From positions 134,070,022-134,134,021 of the forward strand of contig JAOWCC010001634.1 of NCBI GenBank assembly GCA_030867875.1: a stretch of DNA of 64,000 nt, given 5' to 3'. The DNA comes from Actinernus sp. WN-2022. Lineage: Eukaryota; Cnidaria; Anthozoa; Actiniaria; Actinernidae. Below, one piece after another: positions 1-59,320 of the stretch. Below the pieces are notes generated by a model. It searched no databases. It worked only from the letters and a program-made list of their open reading frames with translations, and was not told the origin of the DNA. The translations under genes were made by a program, and so were the position numbers. Each line of letters opens with the position of its first letter. The stretch's first letter is position 1.

Positions 1-78
1 TCAGGGAGTCGTAATGCACTGATGGAGGGTAGTATCACGTGATCATCGACACCGTCAAAGTACAGCGCCTGGTTTACC
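1..78 (-). CDS. Exon (partial): start of a LamG/concanavalin-like domain
   Basis: After TTCCTATCAG the frame reads VNQALYFDGVDDHVILPSIS followed by ALRLP, the opening strand of a LamG/pentraxin-like jelly roll (ALxFDGxDDxVxLP). Its phase (one base completing a codon) fits the donor at 729/730, giving KCIDR-VNQALYF. It could instead be an internal exon of a separate downstream gene on the same strand. The exon runs off the left edge. Confidence 0.72.
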
Positions 79-544
79 CTGATAGGAAAAATAAACAACG
101 TACTACCTTTATAGACTAAAAGCAAAGCAAAATACGATGTAATTTCTGTGAGTAAAGTAGGAGATAATATACACCTATCTTTAAAATAGATGTCATGGAT
201 GATAGTACACAGAACACGGTCACTAGGACACAGGATATGAGATGATCCAAGATGAATTCGTTTACGTCGGAAGTCGAAAACTGTAAGACAATTGCCAATG
301 GTTTCCGTCGAATCCATTTTTTACAACGCCCACCAATGTTCTCGCAATCTGATTGGCTAATTTTATCGCCCATATCTGGACAGACAACATAAGGTCACAT
401 CATTCGTCAGGCAGTGCGCGGCGAAGAAGCCTAATGGTTTTACAGCTATTTCATGTTATGATGGAAATTATTGTCAATTAACGGACAGACACGTGAAAAA
501 CTAACTTCAAATTTGTTAATTCGAATCACACTGTTGTTCTATGT

Positions 545-695
545 TCTGACTGTGTCCTATACTATCCTACTGACTATGTCCTATATCCTGTCTTATGTCC
601 TACTGACTATGTCCTATATCCTGTCTTATGTCCTACTGACTATGTCCTATATCCTCAGTCTGTCTTATGTCCGATTGACTATGCCCTATGTACTT
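545..695. repeat. 33-bp minisatellite in the last intron
   Basis: TACTGACTATGTCCTATATC recurs at 568, 601 and 634, a period of 33 bases, with degenerate copies on each side. Because 33 is a multiple of three, it makes a spurious periodic open frame (LTMSYILSYVL). The rest of 79-729 shows nothing recognisable. Confidence 0.85.
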
Positions 696-729
696 TAATT
701 AAAATATCTACTTAATATTGACATCTCAC

Positions 730-873
730 CTATCGATACATTTGGCCTCCAGACGTGACCATATGACGTCCTCTTGACCAAATACAAACATACCAAGACG
801 ACCCCCTGTAATGGTGATATCGTACAGGTTACCCGAGTCTGTCAGGATCTTCTCACCTTGGAAGATAACCAAC
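730..873 (-). CDS. Exon: last thrombospondin C-terminal block, with donor overlapping the usual stop
   Basis: It encodes LVIFQGEKILTDSGNLYD, ITITGGRLGMFVFGQEDVIW and SRLEAKCIDR. This matches VVxYEGxxxxxDSGxIYDxTxxGGRLGxFxFSQExVxxSxLxxxC. In frame the next codon is TGA (726-728), the family's usual end. That TGA lies inside AG|GTGAGA, a strong donor. Phase 2 out matches exon 1-78, so two endings are possible. Confidence 0.95.
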
Positions 874-1495: not shown

Positions 1496-1593
1496 CGTAT
1501 CAGTCCAATGGATGGTCTGTGCATGACATGGAACTGGTACGGCGTCTCGTGCTTCCAACCTTCCATCTTGGGATCGTGCCACAAGACGGTCAC
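1496..1593 (-). CDS. Exon: thrombospondin C-terminal domain
   Basis: Phase is 0 in and 2 out. It encodes VTVLWHDPKMEGWKHETPYQ and FHVMHRPSIGLI, the LWHDPxxxGWKDxTxYxxxxxHRPxxGxI block. The CGG arginine is completed in the next exon. The acceptor is CGTCCAG and the donor GTATAA. Confidence 0.96.
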
Positions 1594-6225: not shown

Positions 6226-6860
6226 AAAGCTGGCCTCCCTTGCACTATCACTCTGCATGTGCGATGGCCAACGTGTCTGAGAGGAGAGTATTAGCATTTT
6301 AGAAAAGGTAACCTACAGTAATGTTCAAGTGGTTCCAATGATTAGTTGCCATGGCAACAAAATGGTTGTAGCCCAGCATTGTTGTTTATTCGTTATTACG
6401 TCTCATTGTTCAACGTCTTGTCAGTGAAATGCCTTAAATTTACAGTTATACTGCAGGAAAGACCGTGCTAACACTGGAATTAATTAACATGTGGTTTCCA
6501 TGGTTACGAAGTTTTTCCCAACTTGGCACTATATCAAAATATGTTTGTCTTGTTAACCTCTTCAAGTGTAACAGTTTTCATGCTGGTATCAAAATGTGTA
6601 TACAAAAAAAAAGAGCTATGCCGCTAGACTATTACAGATTAACAAACCCATGAGCTTTGTTGGTAACCGGAGTTCAATAAAATCGGTGTGCTGGAAACTT
6701 CTACAGCCTAAATGTTTCTGCTTAAAAGTGCAAATCTTTAAGATGCCCATTCGGCTGTCACAATACCTGCGAACCACCTTAAGTTGGATTTATGTACAAC
6801 ATTAGGATTAGCACTACTAAGAGTAAGAAATTCGATCAGAAGGATGCGACCTAACCTTAT

Positions 6861-7223
6861 TTGTGGTATCTGACGAATGCCAAAGAGCTTGTGCCAGTGC
6901 CGCTCCAGGAGCTGTGTCCGAATTTACAAGCTGTAAAAGTAACAAAGAAGTATGATGAAGGTAAATATTGCATATCATTTCAATCAAGCATTGAAGGAAA
7001 TACTTTCACTGTTTATGGCCAATTAACAGCCACCAATCGAACATTGACTCTGGCCATACATGTGCAGCACCATGGCATAGCTCCTTCAATATATTTTTTA
7101 ATGACATCCCAGAAGACAAAATCATACAGAAACAAATCAGCAAAACGGGGAAGAGTTTTACATCCGCCGAGCCTTGAAATGATTGTGTCTTTATATCGAT
7201 TCGATCTCGGAATGGCTCATTAA
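6861..7223 (+). CDS. Unrecognised 120-codon open frame
   Basis: Reads QELCPNLQAVKVTKKYDEGK and GNTFTVYGQLTATNRTLTLA with reasonable codon use, but no known motif, signal or membrane segment. It ends where a MITE begins (7220), so the 3' end is probably lost. It may be a transposon remnant or chance. Confidence 0.25.
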   Translation: MWYLTNAKELVPVPLQELCPNLQAVKVTKKYDEGKYCISFQSSIEGNTFTVYGQLTATNRTLTLAIHVQHHGIAPSIYFLMTSQKTKSYRNKSAKRGRVLHPPSLEMIVSLYRFDLGMAH

Positions 7224-8118: not shown

Positions 8119-8309
8119 CTTTAGCTGAAGTCCTCTGATTGCGATGTTTATGTTCCCGTCTGCGTAGTCGGTGCTTTCTCGCCTCCACATGGCAACGTAG
8201 AATTTCCTGTTCGTCTGATAACCAAACACCACCCCGATGTAGTCTGACCCTGAACTACCTCTTACATACATGGTGCCCCTGTAATCCACCGGGCCGTACC
8301 TCGTATTAC
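8119..8309 (-). CDS. Exon: thrombospondin C-terminal domain
   Basis: Phase is 1 in and 0 out. It encodes YGPVDYRGTMYVRG, SDYIGVVFGYQTNRKFYVAM and WRRES...GLQLK. This matches the VDFxGTFxV...DDDYxGFxFGYQxSxxFYVxMWK block, including the conserved FGYQ and W. The donor GTGGGT follows CTAAAG. The next 25 or so residues of the family are not found downstream. Confidence 0.96.
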
Positions 8310-8966
8310 CTACAACCAGACATAGGTTATCGTGATCAGTAACTACAACATGTATAGTCTGACTTTTCTATTAAATGGATCGTTATTTAAACCCAATTAA
8401 AGCAGAACTAAAATATAGGGTTTACAGCATCATTGTAAAACTGAACTATTGTAAAAATGCTGAAGTCTAAAGCCTGACTAATTTATACTTGTATTATCAG
8501 GAACCGCAGAAACTCTCGCCCATTAGTTTGTCTGATCATTCTTCCTTTTGCGTTAGGCCCAAACATAGAAACAATGGTAAATCGAACAAATGCGAACAAA
8601 TGCCCCCAAAAACCCCTTTCCAATATATGCTAATTTCCAAAATATAATTACTTTAGTTTCTTGTCATGAATGGGTGACTGAATACACGTGCGGAATTTGA
8701 AAACACGCTGTGAAATGTACGATTTGGCGCATAATTAGAAAGCTCGAAGGAGAAAAGAATAGGAGCGATTTTGAAGGTTTCAACCAGCTACATTCCCGAC
8801 CTCAGTGCACAAAAACGTATTCATGACACGAAATGAAATTGCACATGGTGGCACAAAATATGTTGTTCTACAACATACTCGCGAACGAGGCCAAAGTTTT
8901 TTAAATATTTACATAAATTCAAAATTGACACTTTTCACTAAATATTCACTATACACGACTTTCATA

Positions 8967-10288: not shown

Positions 10289-10340
10289 CGATGAGCATGC
10301 CGGGATGGCTGGTATTGGATACGTGCTCCACATCTACACC
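10289..10340 (-). CDS. Exon: C-terminal domain segment (52 bases)
   Basis: Phase is 0 in and 1 out (TGCATTTAG, then GTGAGT). It encodes GVDVEHVSNTSHPGMLIG, matching the thrombospondin segment QGMEIVQTMNSDPGLAVG. It is found only by homology and phase, because 52 bases is too short to stand out. Confidence 0.9.
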
Positions 10341-11195: not shown

Positions 11196-11371
11196 CTTTT
11201 TTGCAACTTTCCATTCAGGATCTGGATCACCGTGGCCTGGGTACAAGTCTACGGTGAAGTGGTCCAGGAAGCTCGTGTTGCTGATGTGTTTGACATGTGC
11301 GCATGCGTCATTATTATCATCAACACCGTCACCATCAAAATCACTGATACACTTGTCACCAACCGCTTGAG
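11196..11371 (-). CDS. Exon: last type-3 repeat and start of the C-terminal domain
   Basis: Phase is 1 in and 0 out. It encodes GDKCISDFDGDGVDDNNDAC followed by AHVKHISNTSFLDHFTVDL, then PGHGDPDPEWKVAKK. The second part matches the thrombospondin hinge into the lectin-like C-terminal domain (TDFxxFxxVxLDPxGxxxxDPxW). The donor GTATATG follows AAAAAAG. Confidence 0.95.
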
Positions 11372-11903: not shown

Positions 11904-12017
11904 GTTTAGTGTCATAGGTGAGCTTCACGTGTTCTTGTCCTGGGTTACTGACGAGTGCGCAGTTATCCTGCAAATTAGTGACACCATCGCCATCCTGATC
12001 GTCATCACAAGCATCAC
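11904..12017 (-). CDS. Exon: thrombospondin type-3 repeat
   Basis: Phase is 1 in and 1 out, 38 codons. It encodes [20 protein letters not shown] followed by [18 protein letters not shown]. The DNCxLVxNPGQ block is the strongest type-3 signature. The donor is GTAAGT. The intron before it (12018-19344) holds several mobile elements. Confidence 0.96.
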
Positions 12018-14117: not shown

Positions 14118-15607
14118 GAAAACTCGCGTTTTGCGAAAATTTAAGAGGAAGATATTCGAGAAATTGAAAAACAAGCAGTACCCGAGATAACACAAAAAAA
14201 GCTACTAAATACGGGTTGAAGGTGTTTCAAGGTATGAAAACATTATAGGCCACGAACAACACGACTTAAAAGATAACAAGCTAAGACATTGGCTTGTTTT
14301 TGTCTGAAATTGCAACTGTTTTTTGCACTTTTGACACAAATAATTTTGTATTTTTAAAGTGGTTTTCACAGCAAGATGAGTTTTCAACAAGTATTGTAGA
14401 CATGGAAGTAGACGAGCTGGACAAATGTCTGAGAAAGTTTTACTTGTCGGCAAGAAAGAAGGACCATAGTTACTATAACAAGGTAACGCTTACCTCGATA
14501 CGGGCGGCCATTGAGCGCTTTCTCCGAAATGACAACAATAAGCCGTTCTCGATTATCAGAAGCCCAGAGTTTACAGAAGCGAATAAAGCCTTGAATTCTT
14601 TCTTGAAGAATTTAAGCAAGTCTGGACAAATTCGTCCTACGCAACACAAGCTACCATTGACGAAGGAAGCGATAACAAAGTTGTACTGACAACGCAGGCG
14701 AGCTTGTCGACTGCACGTCCATTGATCCGGCGAAGCTACAACAAACAGCGTGGTTCTTCGTTACATTTTATTTTGGCCGCCGTGGACGAGAAAACCAGAG
14801 ACAGCTGAGTCCTTCGTCGTTCAAGCTTAATCAGTAACTCCAGATTCAGGTCATGAATATTTCGAAATCAACCGTAATAGTCCTGGAGGCGTCCTCGCAA
14901 CCAAAAATCACCAGGGTGGTTTAGACAGCAACGACGACCCGTCGAATGGGAAAATGTTTGCAAACAAAGGCTCCCTTCGCTGTCCAGTGGCTGTCCTGAA
15001 GAAGTTTCTCTCACATTTGAATCCTAAATGTCCAGCACTGTTCCAGAAACCTTTGACAGGCTCGAAGTTTAGCCCTTTGCAAACTGAAGTTTGGTACAGC
15101 TCTGTCCCTCTCGGCCACAACATGCTCGATAACATGATGAAAAACATGTGTCTCCGAGCTGAAATTAACCCTGCCTATACAAACCACTCCGTCAGATCAA
15201 CCACAATGAGTGTTTTGTCTGCGACAAACTTAAAGAACCCCCATATCCGTGCTGTCACAGGGCACAAAAGTGACACAAGCCTCGAGTCGTACAACAACCG
15301 CCCGACCTTCGAGCAGTTCGCAGAAATGTCAACAGCCCTGACCGATTTCGTGAACTCCGCCGATCGCCAAATAGTTCCTCGACCTACAACGAGTGTTCAG
15401 AGCCTTCCTCAGTCATCTACTGCACCTCAACAGCTATCTTTGCCCTCCAGTTCTGGCCATGTAAACGGATCCCCAAACGCTACCATCCAGGTTCAAGAAA
15501 TTGTGAATCAATCGGTTTCGTTCCAGTCACATAGTTTTACTCCAGCAATGATTTCTGGTGGTTCTTTTGTAAATTGCACCTTCAATTTCAACTTGAGTCA
15601 TCCTTGA
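14118..15607 (+). pseudogene. Broken tyrosine-recombinase gene (DUF3504 / Crypton-like)
   Basis: The N-terminus reads MAAENSRFAKI and continues with DKCLRKFYLSARKKD, SIRAAIERFLR and a core-binding-like helix set. It breaks by frameshift at about 14686 and stop codons near 14833. GRRGREN (14775-14795) is the likely first catalytic arginine region. After another frame change, 14954-15607 encodes the catalytic C-terminus: RCPVAVLKKFL, HSVRSTTMSVL (H-x-x-R), VTGHKSDTSLESYN (the H/K and the tyrosine nucleophile), then a Ser/Pro/Gln-rich tail ending in NCTFNFNL. Such ORFs are common in cnidarians as mobile elements or domesticated genes. This copy is inactive by frameshifts, although the catalytic half is intact. 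Confidence 0.75.
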
Positions 15608-15734
15608 ACTCTACTTTACAAGCTTTAGTAGAGTGAAGAGTAAAACATTTATCGAGGAAACTAAAAATGGCAGCAAAACTTTCCGGATTGAATATTCTTC
15701 ACGCACGGACAGAAATTGTATTAACTATTAACTA

Positions 15735-16500
15735 TTTTTAATTGGAATTCCTGCACTTGGAGCATAGCAGTGGTGGATACGAATACATTTTAGTACTTGT
15801 CGACCATTTCACGAGATACATGCAAGGTGATATGCCACCCGTAACAAGTCCGCCAAAACAGTCGCCGAAATGTTATTCAATAACTACATCCCTCGATTTG
15901 GTTTTCCAAACAGGGCGGAGAGTTCGAGAACAAATTATTCAAGACGCTGGAAGAAGTGGAATATCTCACTCCCGTACTACACCCTACCATCCTCAAAGAA
16001 ACGGTAAAGTCGAACGCTTCAACTGTACTCTTCTAGATCTTTCGATGCTGCGTACTCTCGAGCTCCTTGAACAACCGAAATCGCATTGGAAAGATCACTT
16101 GAACAAGACAGTACACACGTATAACTGCACACGGAATGAGTCGATGGGGTTCTCGCCATTCTCTTTACTCTTCGGACGTCTTCCCAGACTACCCATATAC
16201 CTTATTTTCGGAATAGAATCATCGACTGACCAGATTACGGGTGGAATATACATGCGTGTATACGTATGAGTTAGCAGGAAAGAAGATATGTGAAAGTGGT
16301 GAAAGGGCGAAAGGCTCTTAGTAAGGAACATGACATCGCGTGGGGGCCCAGGGAAGCTGAATTCCTTCTGGGAGGACACCATATACAGGGTAATATGCAG
16401 AAAGGGAGACGAAGTCCTGTTTATGAGGTCAGCCCTGAAGACGGCCGGGGACGCCGTCGAGTATTGCATAGAAATCTTGTAATTTTTATCCACACGCCCC
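15735..16500 (+). pseudogene. Gypsy-type LTR retrotransposon integrase fragment
   Basis: A frame from about 15742 to 16269 retains the integrase core landmarks LVLVDHFTRY, a decayed middle, TPYHPQRNGKVERFN and LLFGRLPRLPI. A frameshifted C-terminal piece near 16390-16480 contains SPVYEVSPEDGRGR. No gag, protease, reverse transcriptase or LTR is seen next to it. The fragment lies immediately after the recombinase pseudogene on the same strand. Confidence 0.8.
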
Positions 16501-19344: not shown

Positions 19345-19430
19345 CTATGCCATCTTTGTCAGCGTCGGCCTGTTCTCCATTAGGTAGATCAACACAGTTG
19401 TCGAACTCATTCAGCACTCCGTCACCGTCT
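19345..19430 (-). CDS. Exon: thrombospondin type-3 repeat
   Basis: Phase is 2 in and 1 out. It encodes KDGDGVLNEFDNCVDLPNG and EQADADKDGIG. The last G codon is completed by the GT that opens the next exon (DGIG-DACDDD). The acceptor is TCTCACAG and the donor GTAACC. Confidence 0.94.
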
Positions 19431-20028: not shown

Positions 20029-20084
20029 TTGTCTTTACTTGCCCCGTCACAAACATCTCCATAGCCATTTTGGTTGGTGTCAAG
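20029..20084 (-). CDS. Exon: short type-3 repeat segment
   Basis: A 56-base exon, phase 0 in and 2 out, between TCGTAG and GTGAGT. It encodes LDTNQNGYGDVCDGASKD. With its neighbours it gives NTNQ-LDTNQNGYGDVC...KDKDGDGV, a continuous type-3 sequence. Too short to be seen as an open frame on its own. Confidence 0.92.
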
Positions 20085-22063: not shown

Positions 22064-22185
22064 CTGGTTCGTGTTTGCATTATTACGGCAGTTGTCACAC
22101 AAGTCACCGATCCCATCACTATCAGCGTCCGCTTGATCTCCAGTCGCATTTAGATACTTGCACTTGTCCGTGATGTCTGCTATAC
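22064..22185 (-). CDS. Exon: thrombospondin type-3 repeats
   Basis: Phase is 1 in and 0 out. It encodes IADITDKCKYLNATGDQ, ADADSDGIGDLCDNC and RNNANTNQ. Two acceptors six bases apart keep the frame. The outer one (start 22185) restores DGDGIADITD with the previous exon and is preferred. NAT is a possible glycosylation site. Confidence 0.94.
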
Positions 22186-22629: not shown

Positions 22630-24972
22630 AACATAGATAGACTTAAAAAAATCACAGTGTACGAAATCTTCTTGAGACCCACCGCTTCGATGTCTTAACT
22701 ATATCTGAGACTTGCAGCTGAGATGTGGAAGGTCATGAAACAGATTTTTCCAGCAAAATCTCCTAGCGATGGCTCTGGTCCCTCGGCAATGATGCAATAT
22801 GGTGTCCTAGTTACCAAGCCAGCAGATATCGCTAACTGTCTCAACAAATTCTTTACCAGCATTGGACGTCACCTTGCTTCCCGTTTTGTAACGGCAAATA
22901 GTTCCGATGACCCGTTACCTCTGTGTCCAGACTTCTGCATGGGCAATATCGAAGAAAGTTTTGTTCTGGGTCAGCTTCAGAAACTGAAGACCAATAAGGC
23001 CATTGGACTCGACCGGATAAGTGCCAGATTGCTGAAGGATTCACTTCCGGTAACTACATCTGTTATTACCAAACTGTTAAATCTGTCTATAAATGCAGCG
23101 AAGTTTCCATCTCTTTGGGAGTGTGCAAAAGTGGTGGCTCTTTTTAAAGCAGGTGATAGGGCAGACCCTAATAATTATCGCCCGATTTCTGTGTTGCCTA
23201 CGATAAGCAAGATACTGGGCGAGCTGTGCACGAACAGTTATATCGTCATCTGATAGAGAATGGGCTCCTTTGCTCCAAGCAATTTGGTTTTAGACCAAAA
23301 CTTTCTAAAACTATTGCTCTGGCTAATTTTACTGATCAAATCTTAGAGAACATGGATAAGGGCAAAGTTACTGGGTGCGTATTCTTAGACCTCACTAAGG
23401 CATTCGACACCGTCGATCATGTCATATTACAACGCAAACTTCGAAGCCTTGGAGTCACTGGATCCTCCCTTGATTGGTTCTGCTCATATCTTAATCAGCG
23501 CTCCCAAGCAACCGCTGTTGGGAAATGTACTTCACCGTCACTACCAGTAACGGTCGGAGTACTTCAACGATCCATACTTGGCCCTCTTCTTTTTATCGTC
23601 TATGTGAATGATCTACCTAACTGTCTCGAACACACCGATGTCACACTCTATGCCGACGATACAATTATATACTGTGAAGCAGGTGCGCCCCAGGATCTAC
23701 AATTCAAGCTGGATCGTGACCTGCTCAACGGTATTTCATGGTTTACAAAGAATAAGTTGACGCTGAATACAACCAAAACTAAGCTTATGTTAATTGGCAG
23801 CTCTCAAAGGCTGAACGCTTTTTCTAATGTTGAACTGAATATCTATGATGAAGTTCTTGAGAAGGTGGATAACTTCAAATATCTTGGCGTGACTCTAAAT
23901 AATAACTTAACTTGGCATGAACATATATTTGTAAGATTCAATCGAAGGTTCGCCAAAAACTTGCTATTCTTGGGCGTATTAGATACTGATTGCCGATACA
24001 TGCAAGGATAACGTTTTACAATACAATGATAAAGCCGCATTTTGACTATGCAAGTATTGTATGGGGAGACAAGCACAATGTTAGTTCAATGGAATCTCTT
24101 CAGATTTTGTAGAATCGAACTGCAAAGTTAATTCTAGGTAGGGATTATTACTCGTCTGCGTCAGTTGCTCTCTCTGATTTAGAATGGTCAACTTGTGCCT
24201 CTTATATTTCTGAATATTGGACTGAGCAGTTTTCCATACAAAATTCGGTCAAAACTCACTTAGATTCAGAAGGCTAAGGTACATGGGTTTTTGAAAGATA
24301 CAACTGAGGTCAATAGCTCTACTGATTTATGTGACCTTTAGCTTCAAAAATGAAGCTTCGAGAGCGCTCCAAACGTAAGCTAGTGGAAGCGTTTTCGCCA
24401 TTTCTTTGTATTTGAATCTCCCGCTCCTCATTAACTGGGCAATTGTTCAAGTACTTACGGGGACTTAATTATATTCATAACTGGATATGTCCATTGATTC
24501 TGGGCGATGCGTATATTCGATCGCTGTCTCTTTGTTTATAAATGTTTAAATGGGCTCATTGATTATGACTTTCATCTTCAACATGGCGATACAATTCATA
24601 ATTACAACACAAGAAATAAGAGAGACTTGCGAAGACCCCCCTCACGCACTAATTGGGGAACTTTCAGAACTTCTTTCCAGTGCTCTAATGCCTGGAATCA
24701 CCTTAATACGAACATTAGAGAACTTGACAATCCCATTGTATTTAAGAATCAATTGAAGGCGAACATTTTTAATTGTATATAGTTTTTAGATATGGACTTT
24801 TAGTTTTTAGCTTCTACGTATTTTATCTTTTCTTTTTGTCAACTGTTTCATATATATGTATTATATATTCTTGTATATTATATTTTTTATTTGAGGGCCC
24901 TCCTGAAAATCATCACATCGATGAGTGTGGTTACCTCAATAAATATCATTGTAATAATAATAATAATAAATT
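22630..24972 (+). mobile_element. L2/CR1-like LINE, internally deleted and interrupted
   Basis: At 22668-22716 the frame reads LLETHRFDVLTISET, the first strand of an APE endonuclease. It then jumps to the endonuclease-RT linker (22723 on), so most of the endonuclease is gone. RT landmarks: RPISVLPTISKI, CVFLDLTKAFDTVDH, a GVLQRSILGPLLFIVYVNDL block and LYADDT with the YADD active site. A frame change occurs near 23222. The post-RT segment (NTRNKRDLRRP...FKNQLK) reaches 24782. The 3' end has a TAA-rich microsatellite tail (24953-24972). About 310 bp at 24188-24497 interrupts the frame. Confidence 0.88.
24188..24497. mobile_element. Insertion within the LINE C-terminal region
   Basis: The LINE frame reads ...ALSDLEW up to 24187 and resumes with LGDA...FDRCLFVYKCLNG near 24498. 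The intervening 310 bp has no matching frame. It contains AAGCTTCGAGAGCGCTCC and is probably a small inserted element; its ends were not defined. Confidence 0.5.
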
Positions 24973-41582: not shown

Positions 41583-41742
41583 CATCTCCATCACTATCAG
41601 TGTCACAAGCATCCCCCACTCCATCCCCATCAGTATCCTTTTGGTCAGGATTGGACTGGTTAACACAGTTATCACACCTGTCTCCAACCCCATCTCCATC
41701 GGTATCGAGCTGATCAAGATTCTTCTTAAACTGGCAGTTGTC
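41583..41742 (-). CDS. Exon: two thrombospondin type-3 repeats
   Basis: Phase is 0 in and 1 out (acceptor TTTGTACAG, donor GTACGT). It encodes [39 protein letters not shown] and [11 protein letters not shown]. All metal-ligand aspartates of the D-x-D-G-D-G loops are present. It is followed by a 19.4 kb transposon-filled intron. Confidence 0.96.
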
Positions 41743-43684: not shown

Positions 43685-43792
43685 CTTTTTGTCAGGAATG
43701 AGATCGTTGTCATCATCTTCGTCACAGGTGTCTCCATCAGTATCTCCATCATTATCCTCCTGACCCGTGTTAGGGATAACAGGGCAATTATC
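43685..43792 (-). CDS. Exon: thrombospondin type-3 repeat
   Basis: Exactly 36 codons, phase 0 in and 0 out. It encodes [31 protein letters not shown] and LIPDKK, the consensus aspartate-rich calcium-binding repeat. The D-x-D-x-D-G spacing is intact. Confidence 0.96.
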
Positions 43793-44466: not shown

Positions 44467-44571
44467 TTTTCTGCAGTTTGGAAGAGTACAGCTGAGTCCT
44501 TGGTCGGGAATGGCATCGAAGTCAGGATCAGGGTTGCACTCTTCTCCGCTGCCACCAAAACCATATTTGCA
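44467..44571 (-). CDS. Exon: end of EGF 4 and start of type-3 repeats
   Basis: Phase is 0 in and 0 out. CKYGFGGSGEEC closes EGF 4. CNPDPDFDAIPDQGLSC and CTLPNCRK form the characteristic link into the type-3 wire (C-x-P-D-x-D-x-D). The next exon supplies DNCP. Confidence 0.94.
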
Positions 44572-44715: not shown

Positions 44716-44865
44716 CGCACACTTGTATTTCCCAGCAGCTGTTTGAGTACACGTAGCGTTCACGTGACATGTGTGTGTTCCATTGGTACAAAGGTCACCC
44801 GGGGAACATCCAGCATAACCGTCTCCAATGAATCCAGGGTTACATGGACCGCATTTGTAACTCCC
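44716..44865 (-). CDS. Exon: end of EGF 3 and start of EGF 4
   Basis: Phase is 0 in and 0 out. It begins GSYKCGPCNPGFIGDGYAGC, which completes EGF 3, then opens EGF 4 with DLCTNGTHTCHVNATC and GKYKCA. The acceptor is GCACCAG and the donor GTAGGT. NGT and NAT are potential N-glycosylation sites. Confidence 0.94.
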
Positions 44866-46746: not shown

Positions 46747-46962
46747 CAGTGTGTTAATACACCGTGCGTTAGGATCACAGGAGTGATTTCCTTCCCGGCA
46801 TTCATCTACCTCGCTGCACACCTGCTTATGCGATTGCGCATGCGCAACGCTTATACCAGAAGGTGCGTTGCCACGGTAACCAGGTGGGCATCCTCCACAT
46901 TGATATCCAGGAGCGAGGTTGACACACGAAGCGTTGGTATAACAAGGGAAGGCCAGGTTACA
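46747..46962 (-). CDS. Exon: EGF-like domain 2 and start of calcium-binding EGF 3
   Basis: Phase is 0 in and 0 out (acceptor TTTACGCAG, donor GTAAGA). It encodes CNLAFPCYTNASC, then GYQCGGCPPGYRGN, with a loop before VCSEVDEC that starts a calcium-binding EGF (D-E-C...CDPNARCINTL). Two EGF domains share this exon, as in other thrombospondin genes. Confidence 0.94.
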
Positions 46963-48474: not shown

Positions 48475-48602
48475 CTCGTTGATGTCACTGCATAATATGC
48501 CATTACCCTCGAAGCCATCAGGACACCCTTCACACTGGTACGTACCAGGTCCACGGTTACGACACGTCACGCCTTTGTAGCACGGCTTGGTTTGGCAAGC
48601 GC
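48475..48602 (-). CDS. Exon: EGF-like domain 1
   Basis: Phase is 1 in and 0 out, with donor GTGGGT. It encodes ACQTKPCYKGVTC, GTYQCEGCPDGFEGNG and the closing CSDINE. This matches the first EGF-like repeat of thrombospondins (NPCFPGVxC...CxxCPxGxxGNG...CxDIDE). DINE joins directly to the CNLAFPC start of the next exon. Confidence 0.93.
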
Positions 48603-49178: not shown

Positions 49179-49373
49179 ACACACTGCTGTTAGTACATGT
49201 TCTACACAGTGAGCATTTAGGGTAGTTTCCTTGTTCAGCCCATTCATTTTCTAGGCACGGTACACATGTACTCTTTCTGTAGGTACTACTGTAACCAGTG
49301 GGACAGCAGTGGCACGTATCGGCACGAGACACATTGTTATAACTTCCCGGGATGCAGAGCTTACATGGGAATC
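49179..49373 (-). CDS. Exon: cysteine-rich module before the EGF array
   Basis: The acceptor is TTTCTGTAG and the donor GTGAGT; phase is 1 in and 1 out. The 65 codons contain PCKLCIPGSYNN, CCPTGYSS and CVPCLENEWAEQG, again CxxC/CPxG patterns of the ephrin-receptor-like fold, then CRTCTNSSVC. The last codon is completed across the intron to a cysteine that opens the next exon. Confidence 0.9.
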
Positions 49374-49791: not shown

Positions 49792-49888
49792 CTGTGCCGT
49801 CGCTGTAAGTTCCTGGTTCACAGTCATACTTCTTGCCCTCGATGCAAACTCTGCCTCGTTCACATGGAACGCAATTTTCGGGACACCA
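49792..49888 (-). CDS. Exon: GCC2/GCC3-like cysteine-rich repeat
   Basis: The acceptor is GTGTTTCAG and the donor GTACGA; phase is 0 in and 1 out. It encodes WCPENCVPCERGRVC and CEPGTYSDGTG, typical of the CxxCxxG / CxxGTYS signature of GCC2/GCC3 repeats. The upstream intron is 12.8 kb, the downstream one 0.4 kb. Confidence 0.85.
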
Positions 49889-52849: not shown

Positions 52850-53670
52850 CTTCAGTAAGACTACTATAGTATTTTAGAAGCTTTCCAAATGTTCGTCTCA
52901 ATATATATATTTTGTCATGCAGGAAAGACATAATTCAATCCTGCTGTTACCTTTCTAGCAATTATCTGCCATTCTCGCTATTAAATATGCGGTTGGAATG
53001 AGATTTTCCAAACATGTATCACGTCTACCTTCTCGTGGGTATGAGAGGATCTGGGTCGAGTGCTTTGTTCATCAATAATGCCCTGTCATTAGCCAATCAC
53101 ATGCATGGACTTTGTACTGTGCACGAAGTTTGAACATTAAAACTAAATAAACGTCAGGTGCACTTTAAGCCTACGCGACAATACCGTAAGGGAGTATGCC
53201 GGGGTAAATCGATCCCTAAATATTTAAAACAGTATATGCTTCAACTCCATACGGATGGCAGAGTTCTTCAGGATCAAACTTGAGATATTTAGTGATCGCT
53301 ACCCATGCTCCCTTTCGGTCTTATCGCGTAGACCTAAGGCTTTTTATCCGACGTTTTCTGTGAATGGCTGCAACCGAAGAGTCCTAAAAGGCTACTACAG
53401 ATAGCCAGTACATGTGCCTATAATTGTCTCGTTTAGGCTCTATCTAAATATTGTAACTCAGTCTCAAATGGTAAGAATAAACTTATTGTTGTTGATTCGG
53501 ATTTCTCCCGTATAAAGTTTTGTTTTGGAGGATCTTCCTGCCTTGATACTCCTGTTTCATTTATACTCTCTTGGTCAGCAGCTTACCGTTGTATTACACT
53601 TGACATATGTGTAGGGTGGACACGGGAGCGCCATCCCGTTTTTACACAACTGTTGGGATCAAGATATAGG
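52850..53670. other. No recognised gene
   Basis: Some locally open frames between 53480 and 53660 but no identifiable motif. Confidence 0.4.
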
Positions 53671-58983: not shown

Positions 58984-59320
58984 TCTTCTGATCGTTTTGA
59001 GAAGCACATGATCGATTTGAGAAGTACATGATCGATTTGAGAAGCACATGATCGATTTGAGAAGCACATGATCGATTTGAGAAGTACATGATCGATTTGA
59101 GAAGCACATGATCGATTTGAGAAGTACGTGATCGATTTGAGAAGCACATGATCGATTTGAGAAGCACATGATTGATTTGAGAAGCACATGATTGATTTGA
59201 GAAGTATATGATCGATTTGAGAGATACACGATTGTGAAGTACATGATCGATTTGTAAAGTACATGATCGATTTGTAAAGTGCATGATCGATTTGAGAAGT
59301 ACATGATCGATTTTGTCGAT
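58984..59320. repeat. 20-bp satellite with ATCGAT core
   Basis: About 16 copies of GAGAAGCACATGATCGATTT with C/T variation at the seventh base, degrading on the right (59220 on). Each unit contains ATCGAT, a ClaI site and GATC. Long minus-strand frames here come only from the repeat. Confidence 0.95.

Follow-up and report, generated by a model that had tools for sequence, protein, structure and literature searches.

The minus strand of the window, that is, the whole 64,000-nucleotide stretch of Actinernus DNA analysed here, very probably carries the C-terminal half of a mega-thrombospondin (mega-TSP) gene, in which the twentieth exon is spliced, most likely constitutively, to the twenty-first, which opens a ConA-like domain of the Laminin_G_3 type. 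We put the probability of this reading at about 0.96. Exon 20 would complete the thrombospondin C-terminal domain (TSP_C) and would be joined to exon 21 (78-1 and beyond), the splicing in this species being predicted from the gene model and its relatives. The protein made from it would be large, secreted and part of the extracellular matrix, with LRRs, cadherin, a Cys-rich region, EGF domains, type-3 repeats, TSP_C and a ConA-like domain, and its C-terminus would have the standard mega-TSP form of two tandem jelly rolls. The N-terminal LRR and cadherin part of this product presumably lies beyond the window, and we infer its matrix role from published work on Nematostella and Hydra.

The two exons at the left end of the window are the core of the case. 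In the window sequence, exon 20 reads (R)LVIFQGEKILTDSGNLYDITITGGRLGMFVFGQEDVIWSRLEAKCIDR and closes with ...EAKCIDR at the phase-2 donor CGATAG|gtgaga; reading past this donor, AG|GTGAGA, leads directly to an in-frame TGA. Exon 21 has the acceptor tttttcctatcag, opens in phase 2, as needed, and encodes VNQALYFDGVDDHVILPSISALRLP as far as the window edge, which cuts the exon. A first-pass annotation, made from the sequence alone, had described a thrombospondin end, KCIDR, with its TGA inside a strong donor, and a same-strand exon of the right phase with a LamG/ConA-like start; coordinates and phases are correct in the sequence, and the start of exon 21 aligns to that of the Laminin_G_3 domain in the mega-thrombospondin of Nematostella vectensis (P0226). 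Joined to each other, exons 1593-1496 and 873-730 have their best structure match in human TSP1, at its end (1ux6, E 3.3e-24; residues 2-80 of the 81-residue query), and also match the solved TSP2 and COMP structures; a fifth, weak structure match was to a Photorhabdus protein (E 8.3e-05). Across the junction, exons 20 and 21 give WSRLEAKCIDR-VNQALYFDGVDDHVILPS, compared to WSRLEAKCADR-VNQALYFDGVGDHVVLPS in P0226. Since the Nematostella protein matches the residues on either side (AKCADRVNQALYFDGVGDHVVLPS), the junction is more than a chance juxtaposition.

Upstream of these two exons, 19 further exons of the same gene extend on the minus strand out to 62888, giving a model of 21 exons from 62888 to 1 with 854 codons and no stop (see table). 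All phases are compatible, all acceptors are AG and all donors GT (exon 21 being cut by the window edge), and the longest intron separates exons 10 and 11. The encoded order is Cys-rich region, EGF, type-3 repeats, TSP_C and the start of Laminin_G_3. Exons were found by motif scan and tblastn, two of them and the start of exon 17 being set by comparison with the Nematostella protein. A model version of 832 aa, which lacks exons 53649-53587 and 10340-10289 and starts exon 17 at 8358 instead of 8309, was used for the Pfam scan, the first search for relatives, the tree and the motif counts over 224 proteins; the identity of 75.1% given below refers to the 854-residue version.

Features of the predicted mega-thrombospondin gene in the window, with exons numbered within the window part
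Feature	Position	Strand	Evidence
Exon 1, growth-factor-receptor Cys-rich / ephrin-receptor-like, KNSTTKPMCRRC...PEGW	62737..62888	-	tblastn with Nematostella mega-TSP, E 6e-21; splice sites, phase
Exon 2, LCKNGMALPCPPYTYVKCNTT	53587..53649	-	81% identity to Nematostella mega-TSP 1788-1808
Exon 3, Cys-rich region	49792..49888	-	gene model, Nematostella mega-TSP comparison
Exon 4, Cys-rich region	49179..49373	-	gene model; Ephrin_rec_like match below cut-off
Exon 5, EGF-like	48475..48602	-	gene model, Nematostella mega-TSP comparison
Exon 6, EGF-like	46747..46962	-	Pfam, gene model
Exon 7, EGF-like	44716..44865	-	Pfam, gene model
Exon 8, end of last EGF and start of type-3 repeats	44467..44571	-	gene model
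Exon 9, TSP type-3 repeats	43685..43792	-	Pfam, gene model
Exon 10, TSP type-3 repeats	41583..41742	-	Pfam, gene model
Exon 11, TSP type-3 repeats, beyond 19.4-kb intron	22064..22185	-	Pfam, gene model
Exon 12, type-3 repeats, phase-2 donor GTGAGT giving immediate TGA	20029..20084	-	gene model
Exon 13, type-3 repeats	19345..19430	-	Pfam, gene model
Exon 14, type-3 repeats	11904..12017	-	Pfam, gene model
Exon 15, last type-3 repeat and start of TSP_C region	11196..11371	-	Pfam, gene model
Exon 16, GVDVEHVSNTSHPGMLI, TSP_C	10289..10340	-	65% identity to Nematostella over 23 residues
Exon 17, TSP_C, GSD at the DDD place of most canonical TSPs	8119..8309	-	motif alignment, gene model
Exon 18, TSP_C	6856..6930	-	gene model
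Exon 19, TSP_C	1496..1593	-	structure match, gene model
Exon 20, TSP_C end, ...EAKCIDR, phase-2 donor AG|GTGAGA	730..873	-	structure match, gene model
TGA from reading into the phase-2 GTGAGA donor, most likely intronic	726..728	-	sequence, exon 12 control
Exon 21 (edge-cut), start of second ConA-like / Laminin_G_3 domain	1..78	-	73% identity to Nematostella mega-TSP 2567-2592

In the 832-aa version, Pfam found TSP_C (E 8.3e-77, residues 612-806) and, also above the cut-offs, TSP_3 (seven stretches), EGF_3 and EGF_CA, with Ephrin_rec_like, cEGF and EGF_MSP1_1 below them. The 25-residue LamG piece, which is all of that domain inside the window, had no Pfam match when scanned alone.

The window also has features other than the exons of the gene. 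The open reading frames at 22699-24011 and 14831-16269 on the plus strand resemble, as judged by eye, reverse transcriptase and recombinase/integrase fragments, and are located inside introns of the host gene, on the strand opposite to it. A 20-base tandem repeat of 16.5 copies (58989-59313) is the source of repetitive minus-strand reading frames there, and a 33-base tandem repeat of 2.8 copies with 100% match occupies 565-655, inside intron 20.

The 854-residue model aligns to residues 1737-2592 of P0226, with 75.1% of the 856 columns identical and 2 gaps, and the alignment runs unbroken over the exon 20/21 junction. P0226 is the UniRef entry 'Mega-thrombospondin' (A0A346ASF3, 2805 aa), which we take to be the same protein as the Nematostella mega-TSP of 2,804 aa given by Shoemark et al. 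2019 (PMC6526912). Its TSP_C domain (2372-2566) is directly followed by Laminin_G_3 (2575-2719), and the part upstream of TSP_C contains LRRs and, at the cut-off, a match to cadherin. The other 11 proteins listed against the 854-residue model had 64-70% identity, the named ones being stony corals. A query from TSP_C to LamG yielded 276 protein matches, the best 120 of which were listed; the best four of these, Actinostola and Desmophyllum among them, contain TSP_3, TSP_C and Laminin_G_3 (PF13385) in a single chain. Two more searches, each with a longer match as query, reached full-length forms including P0226. One relative from Actinia tenebrosa (P0143, isoform X2; 70.6% identity to residues 1-621 of the 832-aa version) is a predicted isoform that stops just before TSP_C, near the junction of window exons 15 and 16 (11196/10340), and lacks both ConA-like domains; whereas a genuine short form is possible, this end may also be an artefact of gene prediction. 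By its relatives, the window gene is probably that of a sea-anemone-like hexacoral.

The fusion of TSP_C to a LamG/ConA-like domain was correctly spotted in the first pass, in that relatives hold both domains in one chain with near-identical junction residues, yet it is already known. Shoemark et al. 2019 (PMC6526912) describe the same architecture as that of the window gene, with the DDD motif absent and with a second ConA-like domain conserved in all mega-TSPs identified in that study, so that an additional jelly roll after TSP_C is not the oddity it had been taken for. In the same paper, the members listed range from ctenophores up to basal chordates (cephalochordates and Ciona); its authors state that the Nematostella open reading frame was sequenced from cDNA, and connect mega-TSP to head regeneration through siRNA work in Hydra. 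In the literature searched, this was the only paper found to use the names mega-TSP or mega-thrombospondin; a paper on the Nematostella matrisome (PMC12549020) cites it.

Two features, the DDD-like motif and the start of the domain after TSP_C, were scored in the fetched proteins. There were 335 of these, and 224 gave a match of E 1e-10 or better to the stretch that runs from the last type-3 repeat up to where LamG begins. We scored a motif as DDD-like if DDD, DND or DED was found at the aligned place, and a start as FDG-type if [FM][DN]G occurred at most 15 residues after the last Cys. The window TSP_C has GSD at the motif place, i.e. the DDD motif is absent, and its close relatives run into Laminin_G_3, which differs from the canonical pattern of a DDD-like TSP_C followed by an early chain end. 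The combination seen in the window, an FDG-type start without a DDD-like motif, was present in 51 of the 224 proteins, the reverse combination in 156 and neither feature in 11. The remaining six were P0003 (motif unaligned, FDG start), P0006 and P0048 (non-DDD, junction unaligned), P0189 (DDD-like, junction unaligned), P0167 (DDD-like, FDG start) and P0143 (neither aligned). Of 64 non-DDD proteins, 13 had no scored FDG-type start (11 none, 2 junction unaligned). Seven of the 11 have LDG or LNG instead; the others are a diverged ctenophore protein (P0251), one whose junction is garbled before the domain resumes (P0121), one that ends at CADR (P0150) and a mosquito protein with a canonical-looking tail (P0085). 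The metagenome-derived P0167 is a mix of canonical and mega features, with a DDD-like motif, an FDG-type extra domain after TSP_C and PF00094, which we take to be von Willebrand D.

For the tree, 225 proteins were considered, 196 of which spanned 90% or more of the query segment; from these 196, 65 were taken and combined with the window (66 sequences). Labels (36 mega, 29 canonical) were set beforehand by the analyst from Pfam lists, junctions and names, and the alignment comprised only the part from the last type-3 repeat to CIDR, leaving out the LamG part. The window was placed in a clade of 11 sequences with support 100/100; the other 10 were all labelled mega and six of them are named stony corals. 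All 29 canonical proteins fell to the same side of a branch with support 100/100. The branch leading to the window itself is rather long (0.41).

The location of a TGA directly in the donor of exon 20 had led the first-pass annotation to propose two isoforms, and it is one of the points in favour of alternative donor use, by which reading on into intron 20, followed by polyadenylation, would give a shorter isoform that ends at CIDR and lacks the second ConA-like domain. Yet an exon in phase 2 with a donor starting GTGA always has TGA as its next codon, and the same donor TGA recurs at exon 12, an internal exon in the middle of the type-3 repeats; being automatic, it speaks neither for a stop nor for two isoforms. 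AATAAA, which occurs on this strand of the window at 0.85 per 650 bases, is absent from the 651-base intron 20; the single ATTAAA there, at 699, could serve a short form but is close to what the window's frequency of 0.46 per 650 bases would give. The one observation that favours a short form is that the mega-type record P0150 of Saccoglossus kowalevskii ends exactly at ...CADR, the equivalent of the window CIDR; this record may be a truncated gene model, and a partial record from Saccoglossus, P0010, goes on into the domain with VNQALYFDG. Furthermore, 51 of the 64 non-DDD proteins have the FDG-type start and seven more have LDG or LNG. On these grounds we consider a short isoform unlikely and did not adopt it; the TGA is most likely intronic, part of the splice site rather than the stop of the gene. 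That the donor is regulated, with the animal making both a full mega-thrombospondin and a canonical-like form ending at CIDR, is likewise unlikely. If it were true, splicing that drops the second ConA-like domain could be one way in which mega-type C-termini turn into canonical-type ones.

Constitutive splicing of exon 20 to exon 21 also has to be weighed against two readings that change the identity of the gene. If exon 21 belonged to a separate neighbouring gene, the thrombospondin would stop at the TGA as canonical ones do, most of which end no more than about 60 residues after the last Cys (P0005, P0056, P0099 and P0108 run on further, with no FDG start). However, in relatives a single protein holds both domains, with nearly the same junction residues, and even by its TSP_C alone the window groups with mega-TSPs and not with canonical forms, which makes a separate gene extremely improbable. 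A sushi-TSP, or a different member of the TSP family that has ConA-like domains in tandem, is a very unlikely identity as well. Tandem ConA-like domains also occur in sushi-TSPs according to PMC6526912, and the DDD-type P0167 carries an extra domain, but the window part has a Cys-rich region, several EGFs and no DDD, compared to a single EGF in sushi-TSPs (PMC6526912), and is collinear at 75% identity with a named mega-thrombospondin.

With the mega-thrombospondin reading, an apparent novelty turns out to be an orthologue within a matrix protein family that is already published, and a 21-exon structure is now given for the C-terminal half of a mega-thrombospondin gene. It also illustrates a general trap in annotation: a TGA within a GTGA donor after a phase-2 exon tells nothing about termination.

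Among known systems, the Nematostella mega-thrombospondin is the closest. The two are collinear over 854 residues, share the junction from TSP_C to Laminin_G_3 and lack the DDD motif (GTD in Nematostella); over the window part, to which the comparison is confined, the only difference is sequence divergence, as the half with LRRs and cadherin and the remainder of LamG lie outside. Canonical thrombospondins (TSP1-5/COMP) have EGF, type-3 repeats and TSP_C in common with the window gene, but most end soon after the last Cys and have a DDD-like motif, and the 29 sampled here group apart. Sushi-TSPs have tandem sushi domains, which would fall in the N-terminal part beyond the window, and one EGF, whereas the window part has several EGFs and a Cys-rich region.
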